A DNA stretch of 34,720 nucleotides from a virus. Positions 7,174-32,100 of the stretch are shown in pieces. Under the pieces are notes generated by a model. It did not search any database. It was not told where the DNA came from and saw nothing but the letters and a program-made list of their open reading frames with translations. The position numbers were made by a program, and so were the translations under genes. The DNA lies in the IMG/VR virus record IMGVR_UViG_3300027752_000054, positions 1 to 34,720 of that record. One strand, given 5' to 3'. Each line of letters opens with the position of its first letter. Position 1 is the stretch's first letter.

Positions 7174-7206
7174 TAATAGACAGCCTTGCTAATAAAGGAG
7201 AATAAC

Positions 7207-8187: not shown

Positions 8188-8196
8188 GGACTGATG

Positions 8197-8840: not shown

Positions 8841-9935
8841 ATGTTAGACCAACTAAAATCACTCTTCGAAAACTCAGCACTATCGGAAGAGGTGCGTTCA
8901 GAATTAGAAGAAGCATGGAATGCAAAAGTAAACGAAAATCGTTTACAGGCCACCGCAGAACTACGTGAAGAATTTGCTAAAAAGTATGCACATGACAAAA
9001 CAACAATGGTGGAAGCCATTGATGCAATGTTAAGTGAAAAACTAGCAGAAGAAATTGCAGAGTTCCACGATGACCGTAAGCAACTAGCAGAAGCGAAAGC
9101 CAAGTATGCAGTTGCACAGCGTAAAAATGCCAATCTAATGAAAAACTTTGTTTCAGAGCAACTCGCAAAAGAAATCAAAGAACTACATTCAGATCAAAAA
9201 GTAACAGCTGACAAGTTTGTTGCTCTAGAAGAGTTTGTAGTAGAATCACTTGCAAAAGAACTTGCAGAGTTTTACGAAGATAAGAAAGACCTTGCCGAAA
9301 CAAAAGTACGTTTAGTACGTGAAGGCAAAGCTCACGTTAACAAAGTCAAATCAGACTTTATTAAGAAAAGTGCAGCATTAGTATCAGAAGCAGTGTCAAA
9401 AGGACTTAAGAAAGAAATTTCAGCACTTAAAGAAGATATTGATCAAGCACGTGAAAACGATTTTGGCCGCAAGCTATTCGAAGCATTTGCTAACGAATAT
9501 CAAATGAGTTATTTGAATGAGAATTCAGAAACCTCAAAACTGCTTAAAGTTGTAGATACAAAAAATAAACAGATTGTAGAAGCACGTACAGCAGCAGCCA
9601 AAGCAATTAAGATTGCAGAAAGTAAGACAAATGAGGTCAAAATGATCACTGAGTCAAACTCACGCAAAGATATTATCAGTAGTTTGATCTCACCATTGAG
9701 TAAAGATCAACGTGATATTATGACAGACTTACTGGAATCGGTACAAACTACAAAGCTACGCTCACAGTTTGACAAATACCTACCATCGGTTATCAACGAT
9801 AATAGTCCAGCGAAGAAGAAGGCAGTACTAGCAGAAGGCAGAGAAATAACAGGCAACAGAACACAAATCAATGACATACAAGCAGACGTAGACTCAAACA
9901 ATGTAGTCGATCTAAAACGTCTAGCTGGATTATAA
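8841..9935 (+). CDS. 22: Prohead scaffold protein gp22
   Basis: The 364-residue product is almost wholly charged helix, as expected of the T4 gp22 scaffolding core around which gp23 assembles. Three internal repeats are visible, each containing a phrase like LAEEIAEFHDDRKQLAE, near residues 69-84, 111-126 and 138-155. They predict coiled coil. The family block NDFGRKLFEAFANEYQ lies near 206-222, and the C-terminus ends in VVDLKRLAGL, a form typical of gp22 in marine T4-like phages. Sites of the form L-x-E or I-x-E occur along the chain, consistent with gp21 digestion. GGAGAGG (8824-8830) precedes the ATG by 10 bases. gp23 follows after 12 bases. Confidence 0.92.
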   Translation: MLDQLKSLFENSALSEEVRSELEEAWNAKVNENRLQATAELREEFAKKYAHDKTTMVEAIDAMLSEKLAEEIAEFHDDRKQLAEAKAKYAVAQRKNANLMKNFVSEQLAKEIKELHSDQKVTADKFVALEEFVVESLAKELAEFYEDKKDLAETKVRLVREGKAHVNKVKSDFIKKSAALVSEAVSKGLKKEISALKEDIDQARENDFGRKLFEAFANEYQMSYLNENSETSKLLKVVDTKNKQIVEARTAAAKAIKIAESKTNEVKMITESNSRKDIISSLISPLSKDQRDIMTDLLESVQTTKLRSQFDKYLPSVINDNSPAKKKAVLAEGREITGNRTQINDIQADVDSNNVVDLKRLAGL

Positions 9936-9947
9936 AAGGAGAAACCA

Positions 9948-11120
9948 ATGTCAGAACTACTAGAATCCCGCTGGCAGGATACGAAAAACGCACTACTTGA
10001 AGGCCTACAAGGCAACAAGAAAGCTGTAATGGCAACAGCACTAGAAAACACTCGTCGTTATCTATCTGAAACCGCTACTGCTGGTGCTACATCTGCCGGT
10101 AACATCGCAACACTTAACCGTGTGATCCTCCCAGTGATCAGACGTGTTATGCCAACTGTTATCGCTAACGAAATTGTTGGTGTTCAGCCAATGACTGGCC
10201 CAGTTGGTCAAATTCACACGCTACGTGTTCGCTACAGCGACACAGCAGGCACAGGCGCATCAGGCGCAGTTGCTGGTGAAGAAGCACTATCACCGTTCAA
10301 AATTGCTGAAGCATATTCAGGTAACGCTACAACTGCAAAAGCAGATGCAACAGCGGCACTTGAAGGCGCAGCTGGAAACAGACTAAGTATCCAGATCATG
10401 AAGCAAACTGTTGAAGCTAAAACACGTAAGCTATCAGCACGTTGGACATTCGAAGCCGCACAAGACGCACAGTCACAGCACGGCATCGACGTTGAAGCAG
10501 AAATCATGGCAGCACTTGCTCAAGAGATTACTGCTGAGATTGACCAAGAGGTCCTAGCATCTCTTAACACACTAGCTGGTACAGGTACAGATACTTATAA
10601 CCAAGCAGCAGTTAGTGGTACAGCAACTTTTGTTGGTGACGAACATGCTGCACTTGCAGTACTAGTTAACCGTGCAGCTAACCGCATCGCACAGCGTACA
10701 CGCCGTGGCGCAGGTAACTGGGCAGTTGTATCACCAGCAATCCTAACAGTTCTACAAAGTGCTACAACTTCAGCATTTGCACGTACAACTGAAGGTACTT
10801 TTGAAGCACCAACTAACACTAAAATGGTTGGTACATTGAACAACGCAATGAAGATCTACGTAAACACATATGCATCAGATGATGATGTACTAGTTGGATA
10901 CAAAGGTTCAAGTGAATCAGATGCAGCAGCATTCTATTGCCCATACATCCCACTTATGTCTTCAGGTGTTGTCCTAGATCCAAGTACATTCGAACCAACA
11001 GTTTCGTTCATGACACGTTATGGATATGTTGAGCTATCGAACACTGCTTCGTCTCTAGGTAATGCAGCTGACTACTTGGAAAAAGTAGAAGTAAATGCAG
11101 GCAACCTAAGCTTCAGTTAA
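9948..11120 (+). CDS. 23: Major capsid protein gp23
   Basis: This 390-residue protein is the T4-type HK97-fold shell protein. The block after the propeptide reads ILPVIRRVMPTVIANEIVGV, followed by QPMTGPVGQIHTLRVRYSD, the hallmark of gp23. A gp21 site (L39-S40-E41, then T42) predicts removal of a 41-residue propeptide; T4 cuts after residue 65 of 521. Also seen are SARWTFEAAQD (near 165), the RTRRGAGNWAVVSPA block (near 245-260) and a C-terminal FMTRYGYVELSN. At 390 residues it is clearly shorter than T4 gp23, so an insertion domain may be missing or small. The ribosome site AAGGAG (9936-9941) is strong, 6 bases before the ATG. Codons are richer in C-ending forms than in neighbouring genes, fitting high expression. 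A strong terminator follows. Confidence 0.96.
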   Translation: MSELLESRWQDTKNALLEGLQGNKKAVMATALENTRRYLSETATAGATSAGNIATLNRVILPVIRRVMPTVIANEIVGVQPMTGPVGQIHTLRVRYSDTAGTGASGAVAGEEALSPFKIAEAYSGNATTAKADATAALEGAAGNRLSIQIMKQTVEAKTRKLSARWTFEAAQDAQSQHGIDVEAEIMAALAQEITAEIDQEVLASLNTLAGTGTDTYNQAAVSGTATFVGDEHAALAVLVNRAANRIAQRTRRGAGNWAVVSPAILTVLQSATTSAFARTTEGTFEAPTNTKMVGTLNNAMKIYVNTYASDDDVLVGYKGSSESDAAAFYCPYIPLMSSGVVLDPSTFEPTVSFMTRYGYVELSNTASSLGNAADYLEKVEVNAGNLSFS

Positions 11121-13554: not shown

Positions 13555-16500
13555 ATGAGTTTTATCAAAAGACAATCGATACACCAGAGAAAAATAGGCG
13601 ATAAAACCTTTATCCTTACTGCCGACGGTAATATGGAAATGAACCTTGCTGAAGGCAAAGAGTTTAAAGTAAACGCAAATATGATAACAACTGGGGATAC
13701 TACAGGCCCAAAGGTTACTAATGTTTACTACGTTACAGAAGACGGCAGCGATGCCAACGACGGACGTAGTGCTGACAAAAATGGAGCGTTTGCTAGTATT
13801 AAGAAAGCTTCGGAAATAGCACCAATAGGGTCAACTATTATTGTTGCGCCGGGTGATTACTACGAAAATAACCCTATTACACTAAGAGATTTTGTTACAG
13901 TAACAGGCCAAGGCAAACTTAGAAATACAAGAATATTTCCAAAAAATGCAACCTCTGATATATTCCTTATGGGTAACGCTTGTTACTTGTGGCAGTTAAC
14001 ATTTAGAGGATTACGTGCGCCAGGTTGGTGTGCAAGAATACGTCCAGGTGCATTAGTTACTACATCTCCGTATGTACAAAACTGTACAAACATGAACGGT
14101 CCTTGGTTAAACGATGGCACAGAGTTTATTCCTTTTGAAACAGTACAAATTGCTGGCATTACTCCAGGTGCAAAGCCTTTATTACTTGCTGATAATCCTT
14201 CTATTCCAGAAGGCAAGCAAATTAATCATACCGGTGGCGGCGGCGGCATACTTGTTGACGGAGACGATTATGATCCGGCTTCGTTGGTATTCAGTTTTGT
14301 TGCAGATGCATTTACACAGATTGCCCAAGGTGGCATAGGCTTCCACATTACTAACTTTGGTTATACACAGATTGTTAGTTGCTTTACAGTTTTCTGTTCA
14401 ACAGGATTTTTAACTACAAAAGGTGGCTACCTAAGTATTTCAAACAGTGTTAGTGACTTTGGTACAAATGGCTGTGTAGCTGATGGATATTATCCTATTG
14501 CATATACAAGTGCAAAAGTCGAAGAAAACTATTATTCCACAGTTGCTAGTGTTACACTTAGCTATTCAGGACAAGGATACACAAGTGCTCCTACTGTTAC
14601 GTTTAGCCCACCCGAGAAGATAGGCGGCGTAACTGCAACTGCAACAGCGGCTATTGATGCTACAACTGGTGAAGTTGCTGCTGTATCTATCGGTAACTCA
14701 GGCGAAGGTTATACTAGTCTACCAACAGTTACATTTACTGGCGGAGGCGGCACTATTCAAGCTACTGCCACTGTTAATCTAAGAACAAATGCTTCACTTA
14801 CACTTGCAAGTTTAAGAGACAAGCCACAAACTGGTTCTGTTATTAAACTAAGTGGCGATGATACATTCTATTATATTACGTCAAACACTATTGTTGATCA
14901 ACCTTTCGTTTACAATCAAGAAACATGCTCAAGAGATGTAAGACGTATTGTTGATGCAGTTACAGGCGATATTGTTATGGGAACATATTACCAAACAACA
15001 ACAGCCGCAACAAGTTATTTAAGAAGTACCTCGACTAAAGTTATACTTGATCAACTTGCTCCGACTATCTATGCTTTAGAATCAACTAGAGACGAAATGA
15101 AAGCATTGACTACTAATCTTGCAATGAAAGAAGAAATAGATCAACGTTTTAATATTATTACAAATACTCTTAATGCAGGTGACAGTAGTGGCATTCCGTT
15201 TATTGGTGAAAATGTTTTAAGTTCATTTAACGATCTAAGTAGCATTGACAGCGAACTTATTCAAGCCAAAGATAACGTATTGGCCAACAGAGACTTTATT
15301 GTTGAAGAACTAAATGCTTATATCAACGATCAGTTTACAGAAATGAGCTATAACACTGCTGAATACACCGAAGATATGACTGTGTTCTTGACTGGACTTG
15401 CATATTACATCGGTAACGGTGGTGACGAAACTATTATAAGACAAGCAAAAGAATTTAGATTTAGACCAAGATTTAAATCTCTTTATGTTTCTAGTTTTGA
15501 GTATGCAAGACAACTTGTATTAGGATATTCAGAAATCAGTTCAGACGGAACATCAGTAACTAGAGTTAATGAAGCATTTAACATGCTTATTAATGTTGTT
15601 GACGATGGCGATAGTTCTGCTATTGTACCAACCTTTGTAGAAAGTGTTGCGCCTAGTCAGAACGCTATTGATGCAAAGGATCACTTAGTATTAAACAAAG
15701 ATTTCCTTGTTGCAGAATTTAATGCGTTCCTTGCTCAAGCTGACGGAACACTAACTTATGATGCCGACGAATGGGAAGTATATGTTCAAAACGTCATTGA
15801 TGCTATTACATATGATATATTGTACGGCGGCAATAGTGCAACAAGACAAGAAACATTATTTATATGGCGCAGTGTAACTTGGACAGCCTTTACAACAACT
15901 AACCAGCAAGCATTTGAAGATTCGTTTGCTAGATTACGATTTGCTGCGCAGCGTGTTATTAGAGGATTGAGCGTTGTTGTTACTTCTGGAAATACCGAAA
16001 CACAAGACTTTACAAGCGGAAATGCTACACAAGTTGAAGCAACACTGCTTGATGGGCTGGTACAGATTGTTGAAAGTGTTATTGATGCACAAAGTATTGC
16101 AAACATAATCACAGTAGCATATCCAAACATTGAAGACGAACCTGCAGGACAAGTTAATGCATCTGCTATTTTAAAAGCAAATACTATTGCTATTATTACT
16201 TCTGTATTAGCATATAACTTAACAAACAATGCTGATTTAACATACAACGAAGAAAAATGTCAACGAGATGTTGGCTATTTGGTTGATGCAGTATACCGAG
16301 ATGCACAACTAGGAACTAATCAAAACAGTATTACAGCAGCAGTAGCATACAAACGTGCTAACACTGCATACTTAAACGTACAACAAAAACCTGCTACTAT
16401 CATTGCATTGCGCGAAGCTAAAAGATTAACAGTTGCAGCAGCAAATGGCGAAGCAGCATTCCAAGCTAAAGTAGACGACTTATTTGATAACATTTTTGAT

Positions 16501-19500
16501 ATCATCGAGTTTGATCAACTACCAAGTGAAGGTATTGAATATCCTGAGCCAGGTCCGGCAGCAGAAGCACTTATTGATGCACACGCACAGTTTGTTGCTA
16601 ACAAGGACTTTTTAATAGGCGAAGTTATTGCATATATTGCTGATAACAACTTTGTTTATGATCAAGCCAAATGCGAAAGAGACACTGGAATAATCATATC
16701 AGGCGCAGGCCGTGATGCATTATTAGGAACAAACTATAATAGTGTAACTAACGGGCTGTCATACCTAAGAGTAAATGCAGGAGCAGTACTAGCCGATCAG
16801 TTAACCGAAACGCTTGCTGCAATCACTTTTGCAAAAGGACAAGCTAATACTGCAACAGCAAGTGATGCAACTGCACAAACCGATGTTGCCGCAGCATTTG
16901 ATGAAGTAATAGATATTGTTACAAACGGCATAGGTAATGCTGATGCACTAGTTTGGACAGATCCAAGTGACGCAACAGCAGGACGTATTGCTGCTAAAAA
17001 TCAAATGCAAGCTAACAGAGCGTTCTTGCAAGCAGAAGCAGTTGCATTTATTACAAATAACTACAAAGACTTCACATACGATCAAGCTAAATGCGAAAGA
17101 GACATTGGGTTAATATTAGATGCAGTAGCACTTGACGTTGCACTAGGAACCAACTATAATAGTGTAACAGCTGGACTTGCATATCAAAGAGCAAGTAGTG
17201 CAGAACTACAAGATAATCAGCTAATACAAACAGCTGGCGCATTAAGAGAACTTAAAAAGCAAATAGTTAAACTAGGGTTAAGCGATACAGCCGAACCACT
17301 TGCTGAAGCAGCAATGGACGAGATTATCGATATCTTAGAAAACGGTGCATTAAGTACAGATGACGCAGCAGATGCATTAGTATTTCCTACACCAGGCACA
17401 TTGCCAAGTGTAAACTGTGTTGAAGCAAAAGATCAACTTATTGCTAACAAAGCATTTATACAAGAAGAAATCATTAGATGGATTGCTGTAAACTATCCAG
17501 CTCTGTCATATGACAGTACAAAATGCAGTAGAGATGTAGGTTACATTGTTGATGCACTATGCCACGATATTATGTATGGCGGCAACAGCGCAACACAGGT
17601 AGCTGCACAGTCGTACTTTGTAGGTGCAGTAGGACAACTAGGCGCAGGCGAATCGGTAGCTACAGCAGCAGCATACAACAGACTAGGACAAGTTGTAAGC
17701 GATGTTGTTATAGAAGCAACTGTAGTACAAAGTGGCGGAGGCGTATTATCACAAGATACTAGCGGAACTCCTGCAAGTTCTACAGAAGCTGACGATCTAG
17801 GCGGACTAGTTCAAATCATCGAAGATGTTATTATTGCTGGCAACGTAAGTGGCATTCCATCAGTTGTATTACCAAGTGTTATTTGGTCAACAGCAGAGCT
17901 GCAACAAGCATATAGTACTCTTAAAGGTAACAAAGCAAGCGTTCAAGAAGCAGTTATTATCTTTATTGCTAACAACTATCAGAGCTTTACATACGATGAA
18001 GCCAAGTGTGCAAGAGACGTTGGCATTATGATTGAAGCAGTTTGTTACGATGCTACCATTGGTACAAACTATAATCAGGTAACAGCTGGACTTGCATATC
18101 AAAGAGCAAATGCAGCAGTTGCAATAGGTGCGCAGAACTTGCAAACAATCAAAGCTATTGAATACCTAAGAAACACAATAAACACTGATGAAGTTCAGTT
18201 GTCGAGTGTGTTTAGAACTAGAGTGTTAGCAGGTTTCAACGAAATACTAGATATTATTAATAACGGATCTGTTAGTACAGATGTTGCAGCAGATGTTATT
18301 ACATTCCCAAGTAGTGGACTAAATGCAAACTATCCGTTAGCAGTTACACAACTACAAGCTAACCGAGACTTCCTAGCTGCTGAAACAAGTGCATATGTTG
18401 TTAACAACTTCCCAGCAGTAGTATTTAATGCTGCAAAGTGTCAAAGAGATGTAAAATACATTGTTGATGCACTATGTTATGATATTATGTATCGCGGAAA
18501 CTTAGCTTCTAAAAATGCAGCCGAAGCATACTTTGTAGGCGCAGCATCGCAGCTAGGCGCAGGACAACAAGCTGCAACTGCTGCTGCATTTGCAGATCTT
18601 GCAACTGTTATTTCAGATGTTATACAAGGTATTTCACATGCAAGTACAGAGCAAGCAGTTGTTAGTCAGAATACTGCCAATCCGGGTGCCGATGCAGGTA
18701 CAGCCGGTGAAGCTGAAGACTTGTTACAAATCGTTGAAGATGTTGTTACAGCAGGAGACATTAATGGTATTCCTGCAGACAACAACACAGACATCACTTG
18801 GACAGCAGCAACACTACAACTTGACTTTGCTGATTTAAATAGTACTACAAAAGTAGCATTTTACAAAGCAGATGTAATTGACTTTATTAACAGAACATTT
18901 ACAAGAAGTTTCACATTTAATAGTGCTAAGTGCAGTAGAGACACTGGTTACATTGTTGATGCACTTACATACGATATTTTGTATGGCGGTAACAGTGCAA
19001 CTTATCAAGCAGCACAAGCATACTATGTTGGCTACGTAAGTCAGGTAGTAGGACAACAGCCTGAAACGGCTGCTGCACTAGGATGGGTCAACACTCTACT
19101 AGGTAGTATATTACTTGATAATGTTTATGGCGATCCAGAGCAAACAGTAGAAACACAAGACACAAGTAGTGCTGCTGCAACTGCAACAGACGTTACTAAA
19201 GCACAAACATTACTACAAACATTCCAAGATGTTATCACTGACGGTGTAGACAATCTTCCAACAGTTTCTTACCCAACTACAACTTGGGCAACAGCTGGCG
19301 CACAAACTGCTATTGAAAGTTTAGAAGCAGCAAAGGCAACCATTGTTGCTGATACAATAACTGAGTTAGAAAACAACTACAATGCATTTTCTTATAATAT
19401 TGCAAAATGTACAACTGACACCGGATTGATCATTGATGCAGTTGCATACGACTTATTATACACAGGTAATATTCAAACTACCATTGCTACTAATGCATAC

Positions 19501-22500
19501 TTCTTAGGTGCTGCACAATATATTCCAGCATCACAAGTTGCTAACACAGTTGCAGCATATACACACTTGCAAGATATTACTTTAAAATGTATTGAAGGTG
19601 TTACAGTTACTCCGACTACCGGAAACACTGAAACACAAGTACTTTCCGGATCTTACGGTACAAGTGTTGAAAGTTCTACAGCAGTTGGACTTATTGGTAC
19701 TATTAAAGGTGCAATCAACACAGGATCGTTGATCGGAGTTCCTGGAGAAGTTAATCCAGACTTTAGTTGGCTACCTGCTACAACACGTTCGGCAGCAAAT
19801 GCATTACTTGCACAAAAAACAAATATCCAAACTGGTGTTATAAAGTTTATTCAAGATACTATTTTAGGATTTGAATATGATACTGGCAAATGCGCAAGAG
19901 ATACTGGATATGTTGTCGATGCTGTTATTTACGATGCAATGTACGGTGGTAACAAGCAATCACGTAGAGCAGCCGAAGCATACTACAGCGGTGCAATATT
20001 GGGTGCAGCAAAAGTTGGCAATGCAGATCAAGTATTGATTACTGCTTATAGTTATTATAAACTAGGTAGTTTGTTAAAAGAGATTGCTGAAAATACACCA
20101 GTAACTAAAAGTTATAACAACACAGAACCACAAGTTATTACAACACCAGATGCTAGTACAGCAGTTGGCGACTTACTTAAACTACTAGTTGATCGTATTG
20201 CACTTTCAGTACTTCAAGGGTATACAACAGGATGGCACGAAGTTAATCATAACTACGAGTTAGGAAGCGGAGTATATAATACTGAGCGTAATGTTATGAT
20301 TGGTGCTACTGAAACAATCGTAACTAATGCTATTGCAGACTTAAATGAGCAGTATGGTGGTAGTGCAATCATAACAGTATTCCCAGGTATTACTAGTGCA
20401 TTAACTACACAAGATATTTCATTGTATAATGTTTCAACTATTAGTACTTCAGGACATGCGTTTGAATATGTTGGTGCTGGTATTACATATAATGCACTTC
20501 CATTCTTTGGAGGCACACCGGTTGCTGCTAACGAAATACAAGAACTTAACAATGGTAAAGTTTTTGCTGGTGGTACAGTTGACCAAATCGGTAACTTTAG
20601 AGTTGGTAACTTCTTTGGTGTTAACGCACTTACAGGTAGTATTACACTTAACGCTAACGAAATCAACCTCCAAGGTCTAACAAGTGTTGGACCGTTTATT
20701 AGAGACGGTATTCCGGTTGGTGTAGAACTAAAAGAAGTTAGTGACAATGCTAACTTGATTTCGACTATTGGTACACAAGACTTTAACACTGCACCTACAC
20801 AAAAAGCTGTATCAACATATGTTGAAAACAGATACTTAAACAAACTAACAGGCGGCACAGTTACAGGTAACTTAGTACTCGACGGCGACTTTGATGTAAA
20901 CGGCGATGTTATTAGTACAGATGTTACAGGATCATTTAACTTATTAAACACAAGTGCTACAACTATTAATGCATTTGGCGAAGCTACAGATATTAATATA
21001 GGTGCAGCTACAGGTACAGTTACTATTAATCCAGACATGTTAGTCCAAGGTAGCTTAACAGTTAATGGCGACATTGTGTTTACAGGCGATGTTAGTTTAA
21101 ACATTCCTGATGAAAGTCAGCAAGCATACAGTATTAGTACTGAAGGATCGTTAGACTTTATTAGTATTAACACACGTACAGACGAAGAACTAGTTACATT
21201 TGGCATCCGTCCAAGTCTACTGGTTGAAAATACTACTGAATCAACAAGTGTTACATCAGGTTCGCTTGTTATTGACGGTGGTGTTGGTATTGCTAAAAGT
21301 GTTAACATAGGTATTGATTTAACAGTAGACGGCAGTGTTATATTAGGCGATGATAGAGCAATTGATACTGTTGATATTAATGGTACAACAGATATCGATG
21401 TTCCAGATAATAGTGTTGACGTATTTAGAATACATGAAAACGTCACAGACTATATTACTATTAATACAACCAATACAGCAGAAGTTGTAGAGTTTGGAAG
21501 TGTTCCAAACATTATTGTACTAAACAACGATGATGCAACAGACGATACTACTGGTGCTGTTCAAATCACAGGTGGTTTAAGTACACAGCGTAACATACAC
21601 GCAGGTGTTGATATTACTGCTGATAGAGATATTGTTGCTGATAGAGACATACAAGTTAACGGTACTAACATTACTACAGACGAAACAGGAACATTTAATG
21701 TATTCAATACTAACGCTACTCGTATAGATGCGTTTGGTGATGCTACAACTATTAACATAGGTGCAGCATCGGGTATATTAACTATTAATAACGAAATAGT
21801 TATTATTGACAGTGTTACAAGTTTGCAGATTCCAGTTGGTGATACAGCAGAACGTCCAACAGAAGCAACAGGTCAAGTACGTTTCAACACTGATACAACA
21901 GTGTTTGAAGGATACGATGGCAATGCATGGGGATCGCTAGGCGGAGTTAAAGATGTAGATCAAAATACATTTATCCGTCCAGAGACTAACCCAGGTGCTA
22001 ACAATGATGAACTAGAGTTCTTTACAAACGGATCTCAACGTGCTATTATTGGTAATACATTCTTTAACATTGATGCTAGTGTTATAACAACATTTGCTAA
22101 TATAACAGTAAGCAGCAACTATCAAACTGGTGCAGTTGTAATAGCAGGCGGACTTGGCGTTGCTAAAGACATAAATGTACAAGGTGCTATTGGCGGCAAC
22201 AACAGTGGTGTATTACAACTTACTAAACTAGCAACTGACACTATTGATATCAGAGCAAATACAATTCTTGCACAAGATGGCTTGAAACTTATAATGAATG
22301 CACCTGATAGTAGTGCAGACGATATTGTATATCCAATGACATTTGCGCACCATAGTTCAGCAGGCACTCCAGTTGCTGGTAGTGGTACTGGTGTACGTTT
22401 TGAAATGGAAACTGCAAACAATAACTTTGAAATTGCAGGCGACATTGCATTAGTAGCAACAGATATAACAGGTCTACAAGAAGACTTTGATATGGTGTTT

Positions 22501-22956
22501 AGAACTATGATCAGTGGTACAGCTGGTATTGAAAAACTTAGATTAAGTGAAGATGTATCAACACTAACAACTGATCTTGCAATCAACAACGATACACTAA
22601 GTACTAATCAAACAACATTTAACTTGTTGAATACAACAGCTACAACTGTAAACTTTGCAGGCGAAGCTACAACAATAAGTATAGGTGCTGCAACAGGTAC
22701 ATTAACTGTAAACCATAACTTCCACGTAACTGGGACAGTAAGTCTAGACAACGACTTAGCAGTTGCACACGGCGGTACTGGCGTAAGCACATTTACAACA
22801 GACGGTATACTTTATGGTAACGCAGCCACTGATGTTCAAGTTACTGATGCAGCTGGAACTAGTGATGCAAGTGACAGTTTCCAAATACTAACAGTAACAA
22901 GTGCAGTTGATGCAACACCAGTATGGACAGATACCATAGATGGCGGTACTTTCTAA
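13555..22956 (+). CDS. Giant repetitive virion protein, 3133 aa (fibre/adsorption apparatus)
   Basis: This is one open frame of 9.4 kb. Residues about 58-330 resemble a right-handed beta-helix of the DUF1565/pectate-lyase type: YYVTEDGSDANDGRS, STIIVAPGDYYENNPI, then short strands with NACYLWQLTFRGL and GGYLSISNSVSDFG. Residues about 330-412 hold two copies of an SG-x-GYTS-x-PTVTF repeat. Residues about 450-2250 are twelve degenerate repeats of 136-164 residues centred on KC-x-RD-x-G-x-IVDA. A block near 2300-2420 (YNALPFFGG, GNFRVGNFFGV, TGSITLNANEINLQGL) is shared with the 3580-aa protein. The rest is beta-rich shaft repeats (GAATGTVTI type) and the end has AHGGTGVSTFTTDGILYGNA. No S74 chaperone domain is present, unlike its paralogue. 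GGAAG (13542-13546) precedes the ATG by 8 bases. A long fibre or tail-sheathing fibrous structure is inferred; the enzymatic potential of the helix is unknown. Confidence 0.8.
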   Translation: MSFIKRQSIHQRKIGDKTFILTADGNMEMNLAEGKEFKVNANMITTGDTTGPKVTNVYYVTEDGSDANDGRSADKNGAFASIKKASEIAPIGSTIIVAPGDYYENNPITLRDFVTVTGQGKLRNTRIFPKNATSDIFLMGNACYLWQLTFRGLRAPGWCARIRPGALVTTSPYVQNCTNMNGPWLNDGTEFIPFETVQIAGITPGAKPLLLADNPSIPEGKQINHTGGGGGILVDGDDYDPASLVFSFVADAFTQIAQGGIGFHITNFGYTQIVSCFTVFCSTGFLTTKGGYLSISNSVSDFGTNGCVADGYYPIAYTSAKVEENYYSTVASVTLSYSGQGYTSAPTVTFSPPEKIGGVTATATAAIDATTGEVAAVSIGNSGEGYTSLPTVTFTGGGGTIQATATVNLRTNASLTLASLRDKPQTGSVIKLSGDDTFYYITSNTIVDQPFVYNQETCSRDVRRIVDAVTGDIVMGTYYQTTTAATSYLRSTSTKVILDQLAPTIYALESTRDEMKALTTNLAMKEEIDQRFNIITNTLNAGDSSGIPFIGENVLSSFNDLSSIDSELIQAKDNVLANRDFIVEELNAYINDQFTEMSYNTAEYTEDMTVFLTGLAYYIGNGGDETIIRQAKEFRFRPRFKSLYVSSFEYARQLVLGYSEISSDGTSVTRVNEAFNMLINVVDDGDSSAIVPTFVESVAPSQNAIDAKDHLVLNKDFLVAEFNAFLAQADGTLTYDADEWEVYVQNVIDAITYDILYGGNSATRQETLFIWRSVTWTAFTTTNQQAFEDSFARLRFAAQRVIRGLSVVVTSGNTETQDFTSGNATQVEATLLDGLVQIVESVIDAQSIANIITVAYPNIEDEPAGQVNASAILKANTIAIITSVLAYNLTNNADLTYNEEKCQRDVGYLVDAVYRDAQLGTNQNSITAAVAYKRANTAYLNVQQKPATIIALREAKRLTVAAANGEAAFQAKVDDLFDNIFDIIEFDQLPSEGIEYPEPGPAAEALIDAHAQFVANKDFLIGEVIAYIADNNFVYDQAKCERDTGIIISGAGRDALLGTNYNSVTNGLSYLRVNAGAVLADQLTETLAAITFAKGQANTATASDATAQTDVAAAFDEVIDIVTNGIGNADALVWTDPSDATAGRIAAKNQMQANRAFLQAEAVAFITNNYKDFTYDQAKCERDIGLILDAVALDVALGTNYNSVTAGLAYQRASSAELQDNQLIQTAGALRELKKQIVKLGLSDTAEPLAEAAMDEIIDILENGALSTDDAADALVFPTPGTLPSVNCVEAKDQLIANKAFIQEEIIRWIAVNYPALSYDSTKCSRDVGYIVDALCHDIMYGGNSATQVAAQSYFVGAVGQLGAGESVATAAAYNRLGQVVSDVVIEATVVQSGGGVLSQDTSGTPASSTEADDLGGLVQIIEDVIIAGNVSGIPSVVLPSVIWSTAELQQAYSTLKGNKASVQEAVIIFIANNYQSFTYDEAKCARDVGIMIEAVCYDATIGTNYNQVTAGLAYQRANAAVAIGAQNLQTIKAIEYLRNTINTDEVQLSSVFRTRVLAGFNEILDIINNGSVSTDVAADVITFPSSGLNANYPLAVTQLQANRDFLAAETSAYVVNNFPAVVFNAAKCQRDVKYIVDALCYDIMYRGNLASKNAAEAYFVGAASQLGAGQQAATAAAFADLATVISDVIQGISHASTEQAVVSQNTANPGADAGTAGEAEDLLQIVEDVVTAGDINGIPADNNTDITWTAATLQLDFADLNSTTKVAFYKADVIDFINRTFTRSFTFNSAKCSRDTGYIVDALTYDILYGGNSATYQAAQAYYVGYVSQVVGQQPETAAALGWVNTLLGSILLDNVYGDPEQTVETQDTSSAAATATDVTKAQTLLQTFQDVITDGVDNLPTVSYPTTTWATAGAQTAIESLEAAKATIVADTITELENNYNAFSYNIAKCTTDTGLIIDAVAYDLLYTGNIQTTIATNAYFLGAAQYIPASQVANTVAAYTHLQDITLKCIEGVTVTPTTGNTETQVLSGSYGTSVESSTAVGLIGTIKGAINTGSLIGVPGEVNPDFSWLPATTRSAANALLAQKTNIQTGVIKFIQDTILGFEYDTGKCARDTGYVVDAVIYDAMYGGNKQSRRAAEAYYSGAILGAAKVGNADQVLITAYSYYKLGSLLKEIAENTPVTKSYNNTEPQVITTPDASTAVGDLLKLLVDRIALSVLQGYTTGWHEVNHNYELGSGVYNTERNVMIGATETIVTNAIADLNEQYGGSAIITVFPGITSALTTQDISLYNVSTISTSGHAFEYVGAGITYNALPFFGGTPVAANEIQELNNGKVFAGGTVDQIGNFRVGNFFGVNALTGSITLNANEINLQGLTSVGPFIRDGIPVGVELKEVSDNANLISTIGTQDFNTAPTQKAVSTYVENRYLNKLTGGTVTGNLVLDGDFDVNGDVISTDVTGSFNLLNTSATTINAFGEATDINIGAATGTVTINPDMLVQGSLTVNGDIVFTGDVSLNIPDESQQAYSISTEGSLDFISINTRTDEELVTFGIRPSLLVENTTESTSVTSGSLVIDGGVGIAKSVNIGIDLTVDGSVILGDDRAIDTVDINGTTDIDVPDNSVDVFRIHENVTDYITINTTNTAEVVEFGSVPNIIVLNNDDATDDTTGAVQITGGLSTQRNIHAGVDITADRDIVADRDIQVNGTNITTDETGTFNVFNTNATRIDAFGDATTINIGAASGILTINNEIVIIDSVTSLQIPVGDTAERPTEATGQVRFNTDTTVFEGYDGNAWGSLGGVKDVDQNTFIRPETNPGANNDELEFFTNGSQRAIIGNTFFNIDASVITTFANITVSSNYQTGAVVIAGGLGVAKDINVQGAIGGNNSGVLQLTKLATDTIDIRANTILAQDGLKLIMNAPDSSADDIVYPMTFAHHSSAGTPVAGSGTGVRFEMETANNNFEIAGDIALVATDITGLQEDFDMVFRTMISGTAGIEKLRLSEDVSTLTTDLAINNDTLSTNQTTFNLLNTTATTVNFAGEATTISIGAATGTLTVNHNFHVTGTVSLDNDLAVAHGGTGVSTFTTDGILYGNAATDVQVTDAAGTSDASDSFQILTVTSAVDATPVWTDTIDGGTF
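14926..19893 (+). repeat. Twelve-copy protein repeat KC-x-RD-x-G-x-IVDA in the 3133-aa protein
   Basis: Copies are anchored by a Cys (or its replacement) at residues 458, 604 (Tyr), 740 (Trp), 902, 1040, 1180, 1324, 1485, 1629, 1793, 1952 and 2113, which is codons 14926 to 19893. Spacing is 136-164 residues. Two sub-types follow the anchor. One continues GTNYNSVTAGLAYQRA (copies at 902, 1040, 1180 and 1485). The other continues YGGNSATxxAAxxYFVGA (740, 1324, 1629, 1793, 2113 and, weaker, 1952). Helical segments ending in LQIVEDV and acidic linkers separate them. At the DNA level some copies are still close: the two at 16660 and 17080 share GATCAAGC and AAATGCGAAAGAGACA. Confidence 0.85.
20950..22712 (+). 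repeat. Beta-shaft repeats (TTINxxGxAT-x-INIGAATGTxTI) in the 3133-aa protein
   Basis: Three copies occur near 20950-21030, 21706-21790 and 22627-22712. Each follows an NLLNT or NVFNT phrase and is followed by a GDI/GSL-type strand block. The same repeat recurs six times, more loosely, in the 3580-aa protein (29560-31720). Regular short beta repeats with Gly and Asn turns are typical of trimeric fibre shafts. Confidence 0.75.
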
Positions 22957-22983
22957 ACTTACTGAATAAAGTAAAACAATAAT

Positions 22984-23010
22984 AAAAAGGGCTCTACGGG
23001 CCCTTTTTTT
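22984..23010 (+). terminator. Intrinsic terminator after the 3133-aa gene
   Basis: AAAAAGGGC (22984-22992) pairs with GCCCTTTTT (23000-23008). Two further pairs, T-G and C-G, can close the loop to TAC. Seven T residues end it. It resembles the terminator after gp23 in stem composition and in the TACGGG sequence at the loop. Confidence 0.9.
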
Positions 23011-23038
23011 ACGAATACAGTAACCATTTTTTAAACTT

Positions 23039-23046
23039 GATAAATA
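23039..23046 (+). promoter_or_regulatory. Late promoter candidate GATAAATA for the 3580-aa gene
   Basis: GATAAATA matches seven of eight late consensus positions, lies 28 bases after the preceding terminator and 77 before the ATG at 23124. This arrangement repeats that at 11419 (terminator, GATAAATA, structured leader of about 70 bases, strong ribosome site). Confidence 0.6.
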
Positions 23047-23055
23047 ACTTAGTAG

Positions 23056-23099
23056 CGATTTTTATCGTTTTATATTGGGCGTCTTCGGACCTGACCCGT
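23056..23099 (+). other. Structured leader with a UUCG hairpin
   Basis: CGAT (23056-23059) pairs with ATCG (23064-23067) around TTTT. Then GTC (23081-23083) pairs with GAC (23088-23090) around TTCG, a very stable tetraloop common in T4 messages. The flanking GGG/CCC may extend the second stem with an internal loop. It precedes the near-perfect ribosome site AGGAGG (23108-23113) and may protect the long message. Confidence 0.4.
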
Positions 23100-23123
23100 A
23101 CCTAAATAGGAGGCAGTTGCAAG

Positions 23124-26100
23124 ATGGCAACAAGGATTAGACATAAAAGAAGTGCAGTAGCGGGTAACGTACCTAGCGTAGGACAACTTCAAAGCGGCGA
23201 ACTAGCAATCAACACAGCGGATGGTAAAGTATATTTACTACGTGATGATAACACTATTCAAGATATTACAAAACGAATCTTTGAAGGTGACAGTCAGTTA
23301 AAAGTTGATGACTTAGGTGCAGCCGATCAAGCACAGATTACTGCTACAATCAATAACACTGATAGATTTACTATTACAGATACAGATATTAACTTCAAAG
23401 ATGCAGTTAATATTGAAAATGCTGAAACACTTACTTTTAAAGAACTTTCTGCTTCAGGTGCAGACGGTGTCACGCTTAAAGCACCAAATACATTAGATGC
23501 TGGCTATACCTTAACATTGCCCTCCAGTCAAGGTACAATCGGTCAAATCCTATCAATTAACGGCGTTGGCGAACTATTCTTTAATGATGCTGATATTTTT
23601 GGCGGCAACGTTATTTACGTATCTGCCGAACAAGGCGATGATGCAAACGACGGACAAAGTGCTCCAGTTAAAACAGTTAAACGTGCTTGTCAGTTAGCTT
23701 CCGCACAAGTATACAATGCAGACGGTACTATTACATTTAAACGTATTAACATTAAAGTTGCTGTTGGTGACTATACAGAAGACAATCCAATTATTGTTCC
23801 GGATAACACAGTTATCAAAGGTGACGGTTTGCGTGGTTGTATTATTCGTCCTGCTAATGCTAACTTGGACATGCTACGTGTTCGTAACGCTTGTTACTTT
23901 GGTGAATTTACATTCCGCGACGGTGTTGATGATAACTTTGTTCCGCTTATTACAGCTGACTACGCTGTTGCATTTGACGATCCAACTGCTACTGACGTAA
24001 CAGACCGCGCAACATATCCAAACTTACCAAATACAAAACCAACTATTACAACATCGCCATATATCCAAAACGCAAGTATTATTTCGTTCTTAGGTATGAA
24101 CGGAGCAAAGATTGACGGTTCAAAAGTTGAATCTCCAAACGTTCCGTTCAACCAGATTGAAGCAGAAAATCCAGTAGTTGGCGCAGTACCTGAGCAAGGT
24201 AAATCAATGGTTGCTAACGCTTTTACTATTCTAAGTTTTGGCGGTACTGCTTGGCGTTTAACTAACGATGCTTATGCACAGATTGTGTCTTGTTTTGAAA
24301 TCTTCCTACTAAACGGTGTTTACACACAAAGTGGTGGTTACTGTTCTATTACCAACTCTGCTACAAACTTTGGGTTGTATGCGTTGAGAAGTAGTGGGTA
24401 TTCACCTAAAGCGTTCCAGTTTGACAGAGCATTTGTAACAGGCACAGGACAGTTTGAAGGCAAGCAAACAATAACTGCTGTTGGTATTAAACGTGATGCA
24501 CCAGTTGAAGAATTTGTTATTCGCTTCCGTTCACCAGGTTATAAGACAGCATCAGATCAACTTAAACTTAACAAAGATATTATTGCTAACGATGTTGTTA
24601 GTTGGATTAATACACAAGTATCTGGAGCATCTGCAAGTATCTGGGCAGGGTTTACATACAACGAAGATAAGTGTCGCAGAGATGTACAACTTTTACTAGA
24701 TGCAATTAGATATGACTTTTTGTTTAATAGTAACTACAGAAGTGTAAGTGCTGCACTAAGATACTTTAGTGGGTCATTTGCTGACGCAACATTTGCTGCA
24801 CAAAAAGCTCAACATATTGCATCGTTTGCACAAGCAAAAGCATATACTGCAAATGCACTTACTGATGCTACAGCAACAAGTAGAGCTAATGCACTTTGGG
24901 ACGAGATTATTGATATTATCACTAACGGTGATGTAAATACTGTTCCTGGTGATAGTGTTGCAGCAGCATACTCGTATCCAACTCCATCTAGCGGTAGCAA
25001 TAACGCAAGCGATGCAGGATTTGCAAATGCAGTAGCACAGTTACTTGCTAACAAACTATTCTTACAAAAAGAACTTACAGCATGGCTTAATGTACAGATT
25101 GCAGCAGAAAACTCGCCGTTTGTTAGTGGCTTTGCTTACAATGTGGCCAAGTGCGAAAGAGATACAGGATTAATTGTTAATGCACTTGTTTATGACTTAA
25201 CATACGGCGGTAACCTCGAAACATACAATGCAGCACTTGCTTACTTTGTTAACGGAGTTGCACAATACGGAACAGGACAGTTAGAAGAAACTGTTGCAGC
25301 ATACGAACGATTAAAAGTTATTATTGGTCAAGTTATTCAAGAAGAAACTGTTACCGTTAGTGCTGGTAACGCACAAACACAAGACACTAGCGGAACAGCA
25401 GGTAGCGAAACTGCTGCTAATTGGGCTACTGCTAGACTTGATGATATTACTGGATACTTAAATAGTTTAGGTGCTACACCTCCTACTGTTGTTAATCCAG
25501 ACATTACTTGGACTGCACAGACACTACAAGATGACTACAATATACTAGACTTTACTGGCAGAATTAATATTGCACAAAATGTTACACAATGGATTAATGA
25601 ACAAATACAAGCTAATATGTGGTATGGGTTTGTCTATAATCAAGTAAAGTGTAATAGAGATACTCAGCTGATTGTTGACGCAGTTGCACAAGACCTTTAT
25701 GATACTGGCAACAGATATTCACGTAGTGCAGGTCTTGCATATTATAGTCAAAACTTACAAGATAGTTCTCGTATCAGTATTAGTGGCCAAGAAATGCAAA
25801 CTATTGCAGCAATTGAAAGAGCAAAAATTGAAGCACTAACTTACATTACAGGTGAAAGTGCAGCAGTTCAAAACTTTGCTGCCGCCCATTTTGATATTGT
25901 AAAAACAATCATCAACGATCCAAGCGATCTTCCAGATCCAACAGAAGTGTCAAGCGAAGGCGACATTACAAACGACTACAAAACTACGCCAACTGAAACT
26001 GTATTTAATGCAGGGACAGATGTTACACCTGCTGTTAATGTTATTACTATTGTAGATCACGGCTTCTCAAATGGCCAGAAGGTTATTTACGATCCAGACG

Positions 26101-29100
26101 GAAATCCTGCTATCAAAGGTCTTGATGCAGAACAAACATATTATATTAAAATTATCAACGATGACGAGTTTAGTTTAACATTTGATGAATCAGGAGACTT
26201 TGGTGTTGATATCAAAGGTGTTGGTGTTAATAATCACAAGTTCTTCTCAAATGTTATTGAGTTCTTTGTTGAAGAAATTACTAGTTCTCACCAAACATAC
26301 CAAACATTAATATTAGAGTCTGGAGCTGAAAGTTACGAATTTATTCCTGGTAAAATAATTGCAGGTACAACTGGCACAAACAACAACAGTGCATTTGTAG
26401 CAAAATGGGAACCAAGAGACCGTAGACTTGTTGTTAGTATTGAAGAAGTTGCTGTTGGGTCAAGTACATTACGTGTACAGTTTGATGAAACAAGTATTAT
26501 TAGTGCAGACCATGCAAGCTCACCAAATGAAACTATTGGAGTTAATGAAGCTGCTGCAAAAACCGGACTTGGTACAGCAACATTCTCTATTACAGCTACA
26601 GACGGTAGTGCAAGTTTAACTAACTTAGCTGCGTTGCTAGAGAAGCAAGTTTGGTTCCACAGACCTAGTATTGTTAACTCGTCATCACACACTTGGGAAT
26701 ATGCAGGTTCTGGTGTTGACTATAATGCGTTGCCACAAAACGGTGGTAATACAAGAACTGAGTTTGAACAGTATGAAGAACTTCCAGGTCGTGTTTACTC
26801 TTCGGGTACAAACGAACTTGGTGACTTTAAAGTTGGTGACTTCATTACAGCGTTCAACAGAACAGGTAACATTACATTTAGAAACAAAGTGCAAGTGGAC
26901 GAACTCGATGCGCTCCGTCTAAGCCTTAGTGATGTTGCTATTGAAGAAATCTCAACAAGTGTTAACTTAGGTGATGACGAAATTGGCGGCTCAAGTAATT
27001 CAAGAATGGTTACACAGTTGGCAGTACGTTCGTTTATTAACAATAGACTTGGCGGCTTTGTTGACAAATCAGTTAGTACAGCGGCAGTGCCAGGTGCTAT
27101 TGTTCAACTTAACACCAACGGTCAGTTGAACGGCGATTTGATTCCTGCCACACGTCAGTTTACAAACACAAACACAGCAGGTTATTTGTCAAAACTACAA
27201 CAAGTTGACGATATTCCAGCTATTGATCTTAAAGCTGGTGACATTGCTACAGAGAACTACGAACAAGTAGAACTTACACTTAGTGGAAATATTACTGCTG
27301 CCGACGGCGCAGTTATTACACAACCTGGTATTGCAGGTGCTACTGGTTATGCAAAGGGTACATATGCAACAAGTGGAAACATCCTTGTTGCAACTTCAAC
27401 TGCGGCATGGAACGACCAAGATGACAGTACTGGCGACCCATGGGACGCCAGCGGTAGTGCTCCTAACTTGTTTGTTAACGGAGTTGATTCGGGTGTTAAG
27501 CCTACTGTTAAAGGTACAGTATCAGAGATTATTGATAACTTCTTCCTACGTAGTTCAAACACCAGTCAGTACTTGATACTAGACCCTGATGATACTTACA
27601 CCTTTACTAGTGCAGTTATTACAAAGGTTTCACGTAGTAGTAACATTTCTACTATCACAACTGACGGCGCCCACAACTTACAACCAGATGTTAATGTACA
27701 AATTTTGGTTCCGGATGATACATCATACAGTGAAAATACACTAGTACTAACTATTCCTACAGCAACAACATTTACTATTGCTAACACAGGCGATAACGAA
27801 AGTGAAAAAACTGTTCCAGGTACTGCAAGAACTATTGTCACTTCGGCAGATGGTAATGCACAAGGTGCTGTTACAGAAACACGGTATGGTATCTTAACTG
27901 GTGTTGATAATGCTAACATCACAGGCGGTAGTTTGTATACGCCAACTGATGCAACAAAAACTTATATAAATGTTCCATTTACAAACAACTCAGGCTCAGG
28001 CACAGGCGCACTAGCAGATATTACTGTTACAGCCGGGCAGATTACCGACGTTGATGTTAAGCGTGGTGGAACCGGTTATGATACTGCTGACCTACTAAGT
28101 GTTGCAGCATCAAGTGTTGGCGGCACTGGTAGTGGATTTGAAATTGAAGTAACTGCATTTGAAAAACGTGCATACGTTAATATCCTAGGCGGCGAACTAT
28201 ATGTTGCTAGTACATCAAGTATTGACTTTGTTGAAGACAACACATCTGTACAAAATGCAAAAACTATTAACTTAGATGATATTATTCAAAATAACTTCTT
28301 AGCTGGTGTTCTTGGTTCTGGCGGCGCAGTTAACTATACCGATTCTCGTATTACTATTCCAAATCACGGTTTAACAACTGGCGATCCCCTTACATATAAT
28401 ACAAACGGTAACGTTGCTATCGGCGGCATGACAAACGGATTAGTATACTATACTAAGAAGATAGACGACAATATCATTGAACTATATTCAGGATTTGCAA
28501 GATTAAATCAAATTGATTTCCTAAGTACTCCGGCTAACAACGGTCACACACTTACAAGAAATACAGTTAACATAGTTGATAATAGTATTGTAGTTTTAGG
28601 ACACGGTTTAACAACTGGCGATGCTATTAGAATAGAATCTCTGTCAGACGGTAGTTCATCAAATGTATTGTTTAGTATAAATGCAGAAGCTGTTGCATCT
28701 GGTTCAAGATTCTTTGTAGGATCAGTAACAACCAACAGTTTTACATTACACGAGCTACGCAGTGATGCATTGAGTAGTGCTAACGATCTAGTAACTAATT
28801 CTAAAGACATCGACGGTATTGGTGTAGGTAGTGCAAGCATTATTCAAAACAATGTTCAAGTTAATGGTGTTATTAACACTTCGAGTAGATTAATCCAAAA
28901 CTGGAATAGTTTGGCTGCAACAAACATCGATGCTGAAAATATTATTTCCGGTACAATTTCTCCTTCACGCTTGGGTGCCAGCGGTGTACCAAACAGTGAA
29001 ACAGCCTTATTTGGTGATAGTTCTTATAAAAATGTTGTACAAACTCTTAAAAAGCAAAATACAACTGATAACCCTATTACACTAACAGGTAGTAGCATCG

Positions 29101-32100
29101 GCGGCGAGTTCTACGGTGATCCTGTAAACATTGGTATTGCTAACGTAGACTTTGCAGCAATATCAACATTCTCAACATTAGGTGTTAGTAGATACTTACA
29201 AACGCAGTTTGATGTTAACAATAACGGCAGTGGCGAAGTGTTTATCAAAGATGGTGTTGTAGATGCAGGTACAGTAGATGGACTAGACAGTGCTTACTTC
29301 TTAAACCCAGCCAACTTAACAAGTCTTGTTCCAGTTTCAAGAGGTGGTACAAACATTAGTACATACGCAATCGGCGACATGATATATGCACAAACCACAG
29401 GTAGTTTAAACACTCTCAACATTGGTAGAAACAACAGTTTCTTAAAATCAAACGGTGTTACACCAGAATGGGGAACTGCACTAGATCTATCAGAAGGTCT
29501 CGATGTTGGTAACGCTTCACTTAACTCATCGAGTACAGGTAGCGGTAGTATTTATAATGCAAATGTTACTAGTATTGATATTGGTGGTGACGCAACTAAT
29601 ATTAGAATAGGTAATGCAACTACAACACGCAACTTACTATCGTTTGTCGATGGGTATGATGCAACTAGTTCGCAAGCTGTTGTAGTTGAGTTAACTAGTA
29701 TTACAGAAAATACAAATGGTGTAACTGCAAATGGTGATAAAGAAGTTCCAATAGCAGATACTTCTAATATCCAAGCTGGTATGCTTGTTACTGGTAGTGG
29801 AAGTATTCCATCAAACACAACAGTAAGTGGCGTTACAGCTGAATATATTTATATTAGTGTTGCAACAACTGGTACTATTACATCCGGTACTACATTGTCA
29901 TTTACATACACACCAAAAACACTTGGTGTAACTGCTGGTGATACCATTACTATTGCAAGTAGTGCAGTAACAAACTTAGATGGTACTTGGCCAGTAACAG
30001 GTGCTACATTTAACGCAACATCATTTACTATTCAAACCGATGCAAATGTTACGGCAGATCCGTTAGATGTTGTTCAAGGTACTATTAATATTGGCAACAA
30101 TATGATTATTAGAAATAGTACTGTTGTATTTGGTAATGCAGAAGCAAGTACTACACCTACTAGTGCAACACTTAAAGGTACAAGTGGCATCGGTACAAAC
30201 GTTGCAGGTGGTAGTGTTACTATCGAAGGCGGCGCAGGTACAGGTAATGCAACTGGTGGGAATGTTGTTATTAGAACCGGCGAAGTGTCAACTTCGAGCG
30301 ATATTGAACACACTGTTGCAACACGCTTAACTATTGATACAAGTGGTAAAGCAATATTTACAGGCGAAGTCAATGTTGATGCAATATTAAGTACAAGCGA
30401 AACAACCGTTGCGTTACTAAATGATACAGCAACAACTATCAATATGGGCGGCGCTGCTACTGCTATAAACGTTGGTGCAGCAACAGGCAAAACTACTTTT
30501 GCACACGATGTTGATGTTAACGGCGGCGACTTAGACACTGATCAAAGTACATTTAACTTGTTGGCAACTCCAACAACTGTTAACATTGCAGCAGCAGGAA
30601 CAACAATTAATATTGGTACTGGCGGCGATGGCGGCGGCACAACTACTATCGGACACGACTTGATTGTTACCGGAGACCTAACAGTTAATGGTGATACTAC
30701 AACTATTAATAGTACAACACTCACAGTTGACGATCTTAACATTGTTGTAGCAAGTGGCGCAGCCAACGGTGCAGCAGCAAACGGCGCAGGTATTACAGTT
30801 GATGGCGCAAATGCTACACTTACTTGGGACAATGCAAATACTAGTTGGGATTCATCAGAAGACTTTAACTTAGAAAGTGGAAAAGCATATTTTATTAATG
30901 ATGCAGATGTACTTAATAGTACAACACTTGGCGGCGCAGTTGTTAACAGTAGTCTACAACAGGTTGGAACTATCGGAACTGGTGTTTGGCAAGGTACAAT
31001 CGTTGATCCAACATACGGTGGCACTGGTATAAACAATGGTAGTAAAACTATTACACTTGGTGGCAACTTTACGCACACTGGTGCTCATACACTTGGAGTA
31101 ACAACTACAGGTGCAACAAGTATAATACTTCCAGTATCAGGAACACTTGCTATTACAGGCAACCCATTAAGTCAGTTTGCTGCAACTACAAGTGCGCAAC
31201 TACGTGGTGTAATAAGTGACGAAACAGGATCAGGAGCATTAGTATTTGCAACAAGTCCAAGTTTTACTACTAGTATTGATGCTGCTAGTGCAACAATGGG
31301 ACTGCTAGATTCAACTGCTACAACTATTAACATGGGTGGCGCTGCTACTACTGTTGAGATTGGTGCTGCAACTGGTACAACAACTGTACACAACAATGTT
31401 GACATTGATTTAGATTTGAATGTAGATGGCGGCGATATTACTACAGGCGCCGGAACATTTAATCTTGTTAATACAACTGCAACGACACTTAATATAGGTG
31501 GTGCAGCAACAACAGTTACCGCAGGTGCTACAACAGGTAACTTTAACATTAGAAATACAAATGTTAACTTAGCAGGCAATTTGTTTGTAAATGGTAATAC
31601 ACTTGACACAGATGAAACCGGTGTGTTTAACTTGTTAAAAGACAATGTTACAACACTAGCAATGGCACAAGCTGCTACTGAGATTGTAGTTGGTGAAACC
31701 AAAGCAGCAGCGACTCTTGCAGGCGACCTAGGTGAAATGATTGTACGTATGGATTTACGTACAAACACTGATATGTATGTTGATGGTGACTTATTTGTTA
31801 GCCGAATCAACAATACACCAATCGGCAATATAACACCAAGTACTGGCGCATTTACAACACTTGCTGCAAACAACTTTGTAACATTCACAGACGGTACAAA
31901 TGCAACAGGCGCAGCTTGGGCACAAGCAATAGCAGCAGTTAAAATAACAGGCGGCTTATGGGTCCAGCAAGACATACGTGCAGATAACTTTATCGGCGAT
32001 ATGAGTGCTGCATTCTTAACAAGTGGAACTATTCCAAATGCACGTATACAAGCAACTGGCGTAACACAACACCAGTTAAGTATTACAGGAACCGGTGCTC

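Follow-up and report, generated by a model that had tools for sequence, protein, structure and literature searches.

Phycobiliproteins (PF00502; phycocyanin, allophycocyanin and phycoerythrin subunits), which harvest light in the cyanobacterial antenna, carry a bilin on a Cys, and the propionate and pyrrole nitrogens are bound by an Arg and an Asp. The present analysis concerns a Cys-Arg-Asp repeat in two giant tail-fibre proteins of a virus. The window (the whole stretch of DNA analysed, 34,720 nucleotides) is given by positions 1 to 34,720 of IMG/VR virus record IMGVR_UViG_3300027752_000054. As far as predicted models can show, the repeat almost certainly has a phycobiliprotein fold and a distant kinship with phycobiliproteins. 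The explanation favoured as a whole, which is considered fairly probable, is that tandem phycobiliprotein-like domains are found in tail-fibre and baseplate proteins and that the copies bearing the Cys still bind a ligand. The results suggest that the tails of some marine phages bear bilin-binding-type domains in strings. The models point to a phycobiliprotein fold variant that is real and widespread in phage tails, and unreported as far as found: no account of phycobiliprotein-like domains in phage tails was found in the literature searched, most subscription journals being outside its coverage.

Protein 1 (13555..22956, + strand; 3133 aa) is encoded by an open reading frame (ORF) that is open and matches the PHROG tail-fibre families phrog_5342, 4527, 17885 and 9851. 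Protein 2 (23124..33866, + strand; 3580 aa; likewise an open ORF), identified by domain and PHROG matches, carries at its C-terminus a Peptidase_S74 chaperone domain (aa 3483-3538). Protein 1 includes twelve copies of the repeat and protein 2 three, 136-166 residues apart; the total and the spacing are those of an earlier sequence-only reading of this DNA. Against a profile built from the remaining 14, each copy scored 38-144 bits; among 200 shuffles of each copy, the top score was 4.6-11.9. A repeat beyond chance is thus confirmed. The copies with the Cys were found by a C-x-[RT]-D pattern search. The motif Cys are residues 458, 902, 1040, 1180, 1324, 1485, 1629, 1793, 1952 and 2113 of protein 1 (n=10) and 517, 677 and 843 of protein 2 (n=3); their codons span 14926 to 25652, the coordinates given by that reading. 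It had described a near-invariant Cys followed by Arg-Asp. The Cys is found in 13/15 copies and the full C-x-R-D in 12/15: two copies between Cys458 and Cys902 have Tyr604 and Trp740 in its place, and the Cys1952 copy has T-T-D after the Cys instead of x-R-D. The 'single Cys per repeat' of the same reading is not strict, additional Cys being present within the array (1288, 1336, 1497, 1641 and 2012). Those at 1336 and 2012 are kept in 10/10 orthologues compared; those at 1288, 1497 and 1641 are not kept in all.

The array of protein 1 covers aa 449-2262 of 3133. All repeats are on the + strand: repeat 1 (14899..15336; Cys458, C-S-R-D, GTYYQT type), repeat 2 (15337..15744; Tyr604 replacing the Cys, motif-free, modelled), repeat 3 (15745..16230; Trp740 replacing the Cys, motif-free, GGNSAT type, modelled), repeat 4 (16231..16644; Cys902), repeat 5 (16645..17064; Cys1040), repeat 6 (17065..17496; Cys1180, GTNYNS type, modelled), repeat 7 (17497..17979; Cys1324, GGNSAT type, modelled), repeat 8 (17980..18411; Cys1485), repeat 9 (18412..18903; Cys1629), repeat 10 (18904..19380; Cys1793), repeat 11 (19381..19863; Cys1952, C-T-T-D) and repeat 12 (19864..20340; Cys2113). 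Protein 2 carries repeat 13 (24645..25124; Cys517), repeat 14 (25125..25622; Cys677) and repeat 15 (25623..26060; Cys843), the last without the final helix of the unit, judging from its sequence. Successive spacings are 146, 136, 162, 138, 140, 144, 161, 144, 164, 159 and 161 residues in protein 1, and 160 and 166 in protein 2. GTNYNS-like copies are mostly followed by a short spacing (138-146) and GGN-like copies by a long one (159-166). The exceptions are the Cys517 copy of protein 2 (NSNYRS, 160) and the degenerate copy at 604 (GGDE, 136).

Two pairs of adjacent repeats were modelled as monomers with AlphaFold. The Cys-bearing pair, repeats 6+7 (aa 1134-1479; 16954..17991, +), was predicted to be all-helical (pLDDT 91.0, pTM 0.86). 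The PDB chains ranked by Foldseek (50 rows per model) were then aligned with the structural aligner VIA. For repeats 6+7, phycobiliproteins, phycobilisome chains and smURFP fill 47 of the 50 top Foldseek rows. In VIA, every one of the 50 rows is a phycobiliprotein or a fluorescent protein, in some cases engineered or designed, and allophycocyanin 9i1r_A comes first (Z 16.7, rmsd 1.8, 120 residues). As the motif could in principle steer the model, the naturally motif-free pair, repeats 2+3 (aa 558-890; 15226..16224, +), was used as a control, with an alignment in which none of the 12 rows has C-x-R-D. This pair was also predicted to be all-helical (pLDDT 88.6, pTM 0.82), and its 50 VIA rows are all of phycobiliprotein type (best Z 16.1, rmsd 2.6 over 151 residues); one of them has just 'Bacterial fluorescent protein' as its title. 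The fold match is therefore independent of the motif. VIA Z values range from 14 to 17 across the rows of both models. Most VIA alignments of repeats 6+7 begin near residue 24, which suggests that the preceding repeat takes the place of the N-terminal X/Y helices or that these are absent; some alignments of repeats 2+3 cover residues 1-177, drawing on the preceding repeat. Disorder is ruled out by the pLDDT values of 91 and 88.6. The models thus bear out the regular helical domain that the sequence-only reading had proposed for the fibre proteins; its idea of bundles stacked along a fibre is plausible.

At the sequence level, the first clue came from the PDB, in which 11 of 17 sequence matches at E<=10 were phycobiliproteins, aligned on their bilin-attachment helix. 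No match in this search was under E 0.086, and neither whole protein gave a significant Pfam match over the repeat; sequence searches of Pfam and the PDB were not sufficient by themselves. Relatives were collected from 66 viral loci, all with Cys-bearing repeats, which gave 254 distinct sites including those of the window. In hhalign, 182 non-redundant repeats matched 85 phycobiliproteins with E 2.5e-8 (probability 94, 132 columns). E was 4.2e-7 for 80 clean repeats, a set drawn from units with Cys and Asp (these two residues are invariant there by selection) and excluding the short variant (~108-119 residues) of loci L039 and L040; the 15 window repeats alone gave E 5.3e-5 (probability 67). 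The 182-repeat query scored 48.2 against the real family, 10.4 against reversed phycobiliproteins (the other reversed control gave 11.0), and at most 16.0 against 48 unrelated families from the same loci. Among 1422 cyanobacterial ORFs from loci picked round phycobiliprotein genes (224 of the ORFs being phycobiliproteins), phycobiliproteins account for 207/214 matches of the repeat profile at E<=10 and 90/92 at E<=0.1. When 146 cyanobacterial genomes were scanned, its single match was to a phycocyanin alpha (E 6e-4). In the alignments, the C-x-R-D of the repeat is in register with the motif of phycobiliprotein helix E; KC-x-RD corresponds to Cys84, Arg86 and Asp87 of phycocyanin alpha. The sequence-only reading had known of no named domain, and this is superseded: the repeat is phycobiliprotein-type (globin-like) by fold and a remote phycobiliprotein relative by profile. 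An unnamed new domain is ruled out by these two matches. That reading had also held that a profile match to a characterised domain would speak against it; such a match exists as remote homology, although none is significant in Pfam.

The Cys, the Arg and the Asp of the motif are kept or lost together. The Cys is present in 219 of the 254 sites; Asp+3 accompanies it in 219/219 and Arg+2 in 205/219. Among the 35 sites without Cys, Asp is found in 18 and Arg in 6 (Fisher p 7e-22, relatedness ignored). Without L039 and L040, the Cys is present in 196 of 230 sites (all 196 with the Asp, 182 with the Arg) and absent from 34 (Arg in 6, Asp in 18). Across the clade of the window (10 orthologues, with 43% of array columns invariant), 90/90 cells keep both the Cys of the 10 motifs and its Asp, and 82/90 keep the Arg. 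The constancy of the Cys agrees with the functional weight that the sequence-only reading had given to it. As triad-less copies are predicted to keep the fold, the triad would be selected for something besides folding. The triad is most simply read as a ligand site, with a bilin as the likeliest ligand.

A second Asp, at Cys+14, is invariant in the same 90/90 orthologue cells and present in 195/196 Cys-bearing sites. In the phycocyanin alpha chains listed, this place is mostly occupied by Cys; the phage Asp looks phage-specific.

With repeats 5-12 as queries, a tblastn search of 50,697 phage records gave matches in 68, each of which is named as a cyanophage or a Synechococcus/Prochlorococcus phage. 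The named carriers of the family are therefore cyanophages, although the head genes of the window differ. Among cyanomyoviruses, the repeats occur commonly in tail fibres and in gp7. Cyanomyoviruses with repeats include P-SSM4, Syn9 and S-RSM4; P-SSM2, S-SSM7, S-SM2 and P-TIM68 are among those without. The presence of repeats and of the bilin lyase CpeT was compared in 26 named phage records searched whole, a non-random panel: P-HM2, ACG-2014e, S-RSM4, S-CAM3, S-SZBM1 and DSL-LC03 were picked as matches of the repeat search; the others are cyanophages chosen by name and accession, and the outgroups T4, HTVC008M, Ma-LMM01 and two podoviruses. Both features are found in 13 records, neither in 11, repeats only in 2 (P-SSM7 and the lake phage DSL-LC03) and CpeT only in none (24/26 agree). 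Fisher p is 2e-5 for the 26 records and 1.4e-3 for the 20 classed as cyanomyoviruses, related phages not being independent. The distribution of bilin reductase genes does not follow that of the repeats: such genes were found in 4 of the first 15 records (the repeat-less P-SSM2 among the records with them), and five repeat-bearing records are without them. The cpeT gene adjoins the repeat fibre by coordinates in S-RSM4, ACG-2014e and S-CAM3 and lies 1.4 kb from it in S-PM2, with three coding sequences (CDS) between; in P-HM2 and Syn9 the gene and the repeats are far apart, so adjacency is not taken as proof. A passage of PMC3037559 terms the role of phage CpeT 'unresolved' and gives cpeT in 12/16 genomes. 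A baseplate protein of S-SZBM1 (6619 aa) contains six repeats, four of them with C-x-R-D; Table 1 of PMC9146016 lists the same 6619-aa protein in the virion proteome, with 71 peptides.

Loci L039 and L040 (4373-aa ORF) carry a compact variant, with 23 mapped KC-x-RD units in L039, mostly at 108-119-residue spacing; a full phycobiliprotein domain would not fit in so short a unit. Arrays longer than those of the window, mostly with long spacing, are found in L038 (4433-aa ORF, 20 mapped copies) and L020 (3402 aa, 15). In the S-PM2 record (L192:10557-15384), about 16 tRNAs are annotated within the CDS of the repeat fibre under its locus tag, which is likely an annotation fault.

The favoured arrangement would be a chain of globin-type helical domains (phycobiliprotein helices A/B-E-F-G-H), one after another within giant proteins of the tail fibre and the baseplate. 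Cys-bearing copies would hold a ligand through the triad, most likely a bilin or other linear tetrapyrrole attached by a Cys thioether; a smaller number of copies, in the window repeats 2 and 3, would be spacers whose site is lost. In cyanomyoviruses, which often bear CpeT, the phage lyase may help to load the fibre. That the repeats bind a bilin is an evenly balanced proposition. An extension in which bilins on cyanomyovirus tails, loaded with the assistance of CpeT, form a photoreceptor that gates adsorption is improbable. Such light gating is speculative and fits two phages only, of different morphotypes: P-HM2 has repeats in gp7 (KCARD, KCIRD) and CpeT; P-SSP7 has neither. P-HM2 is reported not to adsorb in the dark, and P-SSP7 to infect in the dark; passages of PMC7852597 and PMC7112961 refer to 'light-specific attachment mechanisms' in phages such as P-HM2.

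Several results weigh against tandem bilin-binding domains of phycobiliprotein descent, or against bilin binding in the window phage. The curated PF00502 cut-off is reached by 0/15 single copies (best E 0.053, in 1/15) and nowhere in the window record; the repeat is for this reason filed as a remote relative and not as a member of PF00502. With KC-x-RD masked, hhalign keeps the same register at E 0.014 (score 20.5 vs 16.0 for the best unrelated family), and the sequence match without these columns is marginal. E is 0.07 with the whole of helix E masked and 4.6e-7 with helix E alone; as this helix carries most of the signal, the sequence kinship leans on it. No Foldseek PDB match has E <0.001 for either model, and only 16 of the 50 top rows for repeats 2+3 are phycobiliproteins (these with probability 0.96-1.00, every other row at <=0.41). 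Among repeat-bearing IMG/VR contigs (fragments of 33-113 kb), CpeT was found in 0/24, PsbA in 0/20 and CpeS in 0/13. A passage of PMC10452541 gives T-type lyases as acting on the Cys153-type site of beta subunits, not on the Cys84 type. By tblastn, gp23 of the window (capsid, 9948-11120) has 69% identity to the gp23 of a Vibrio jumbo phage, and its gp20 (portal, 4503-6260) about 50% identity to that of jumbo phages of Sinorhizobium and Pseudomonas. For the window phage, no source of bilin is apparent.

A pigment-free scaffold is a serious rival, possible if short of an even chance: a phycobiliprotein fold captured long ago would now be a rigid spacer, with the triad kept for folding or domain packing. 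It would account for triad-less copies that keep the fold in the models, for head genes that look non-cyanobacterial, for the bilin lyase genes (CpeT, CpeS) not found in related contigs and for an Asp at Cys+14 as conserved as the triad (90/90) that looks phage-specific. However, triad-less copies are predicted to fold as confidently, which makes the triad unnecessary for the fold; Cys, Arg and Asp disappear as a set, as those of a ligand site would; and CpeT tracks the repeats among named phages. The location of the arrays in tail fibres and baseplate proteins, the site of host recognition, could instead indicate a receptor-binding adhesin in which the YGGN and GTNYNS loops, and not the Cys, do the work. 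This is unlikely: the array of protein 1 lies within its N-terminal three quarters, protein 2 has a chaperone domain at its C-terminus as T4-type distal fibres do, and conservation is highest at the triad, not in the loops. A chance resemblance between a generic helical bundle and phycobiliproteins, with a C-x-R-D of independent origin, would fit the concentration of the sequence signal in helix E and the ease with which helical models give middling Z values. It is very improbable, since one family fills all 50 VIA rows for both models at Z 14-17, the motif is at the same place on the same helix, the reversed and unrelated-family controls fail, and the scan of cyanobacterial genomes yields phycocyanin alone.

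The window includes a head-and-fibre block of a T4-like phage, with the two giant fibre ORFs downstream of gp23. Between gp20 and gp23, both identified by sequence, lie what we take from position to be a gp21-type protease gene (8194-8820) and a gp22-type scaffold gene (8841-9935). Directly before the protease gene, a very acidic 333-aa ORF (7186-8187) is likely to encode a prohead core protein, from its position only. The head genes belong with a jumbo T4-like group (Vibrio 2.275.O, Phosso, PA5oct, GAP32) and the fibre repeats are otherwise those of cyanophages, as in a head/tail mosaic. A cyanophage, the first guess for the window, is unsupported, gp23 and gp20 being closest to those of jumbo T4-like phages of proteobacteria. 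No host marker, including tRNA, was found in three stretches of an 85-kb relative, of which the ORF list was inspected by eye only. In this relative, a 4547-aa ORF (L207:2204-15844) downstream of baseplate-like genes is possibly gp7. One fibre trunk region is seemingly interrupted by the arrays: aa 247-317 of protein 1 resemble phrog_5342 1677-1747, and aa 1147-1534 of protein 2, past its array, resemble phrog_5342 1818-2100.

Tandem relatives of phycobiliproteins outside the antenna, in virus particles, would surprise both fields. They put a name to a domain present along some of the largest marine phage proteins, and they offer a concrete candidate target for phage-encoded CpeT and a candidate basis for the light-specific attachment of phages such as P-HM2. 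Light gating, if true, would explain the purpose of phage bilin genes and the light-only attachment of some cyanophages.

Among phage proteins, the closest described ones are T4 gp7 and three PHROG families. The gene for gp7 (baseplate wedge) bears the repeats in P-HM2 (4458-residue open frame), and gp7 is also the annotation of the S-SZBM1 protein; no repeat was found anywhere in the record of T4 itself. The PHROG families that contain the repeats are phrog_5342 (tail fiber; 12/15 window copies), phrog_4527 (short tail fiber; 13/15) and phrog_701 (virion structural; 12/15). They correspond to whole giant proteins, and their names are silent on the repeat and its kinship. smURFP (7uqa, 6fzn) is a compact single domain of phycobiliprotein type (6fzn_B: Foldseek TM by target length 0.79, rmsd 2.8), which differs in being engineered, from an allophycocyanin, and in binding biliverdin. 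The bilin-binding domain of ApcE (4xxi, 4xxk) is likewise a phycobiliprotein domain within a large multidomain chain, and 4xxi_A aligns with the model of repeats 6+7 at Z 15.8 (rmsd 2.0 over 118). It differs in being a single, non-viral domain of the cyanobacterial antenna (phycobilisome core-membrane linker). The phage repeats are encoded in fibre and baseplate genes and are not parts of a light-harvesting antenna. They differ from phycobiliproteins in being arranged in tandem in one chain, in tail proteins, with candidate bilin binding only; they have in common with them the helical fold (Z 14-17), a unit length of about 160 residues and a C-x-R-D in register on helix E.

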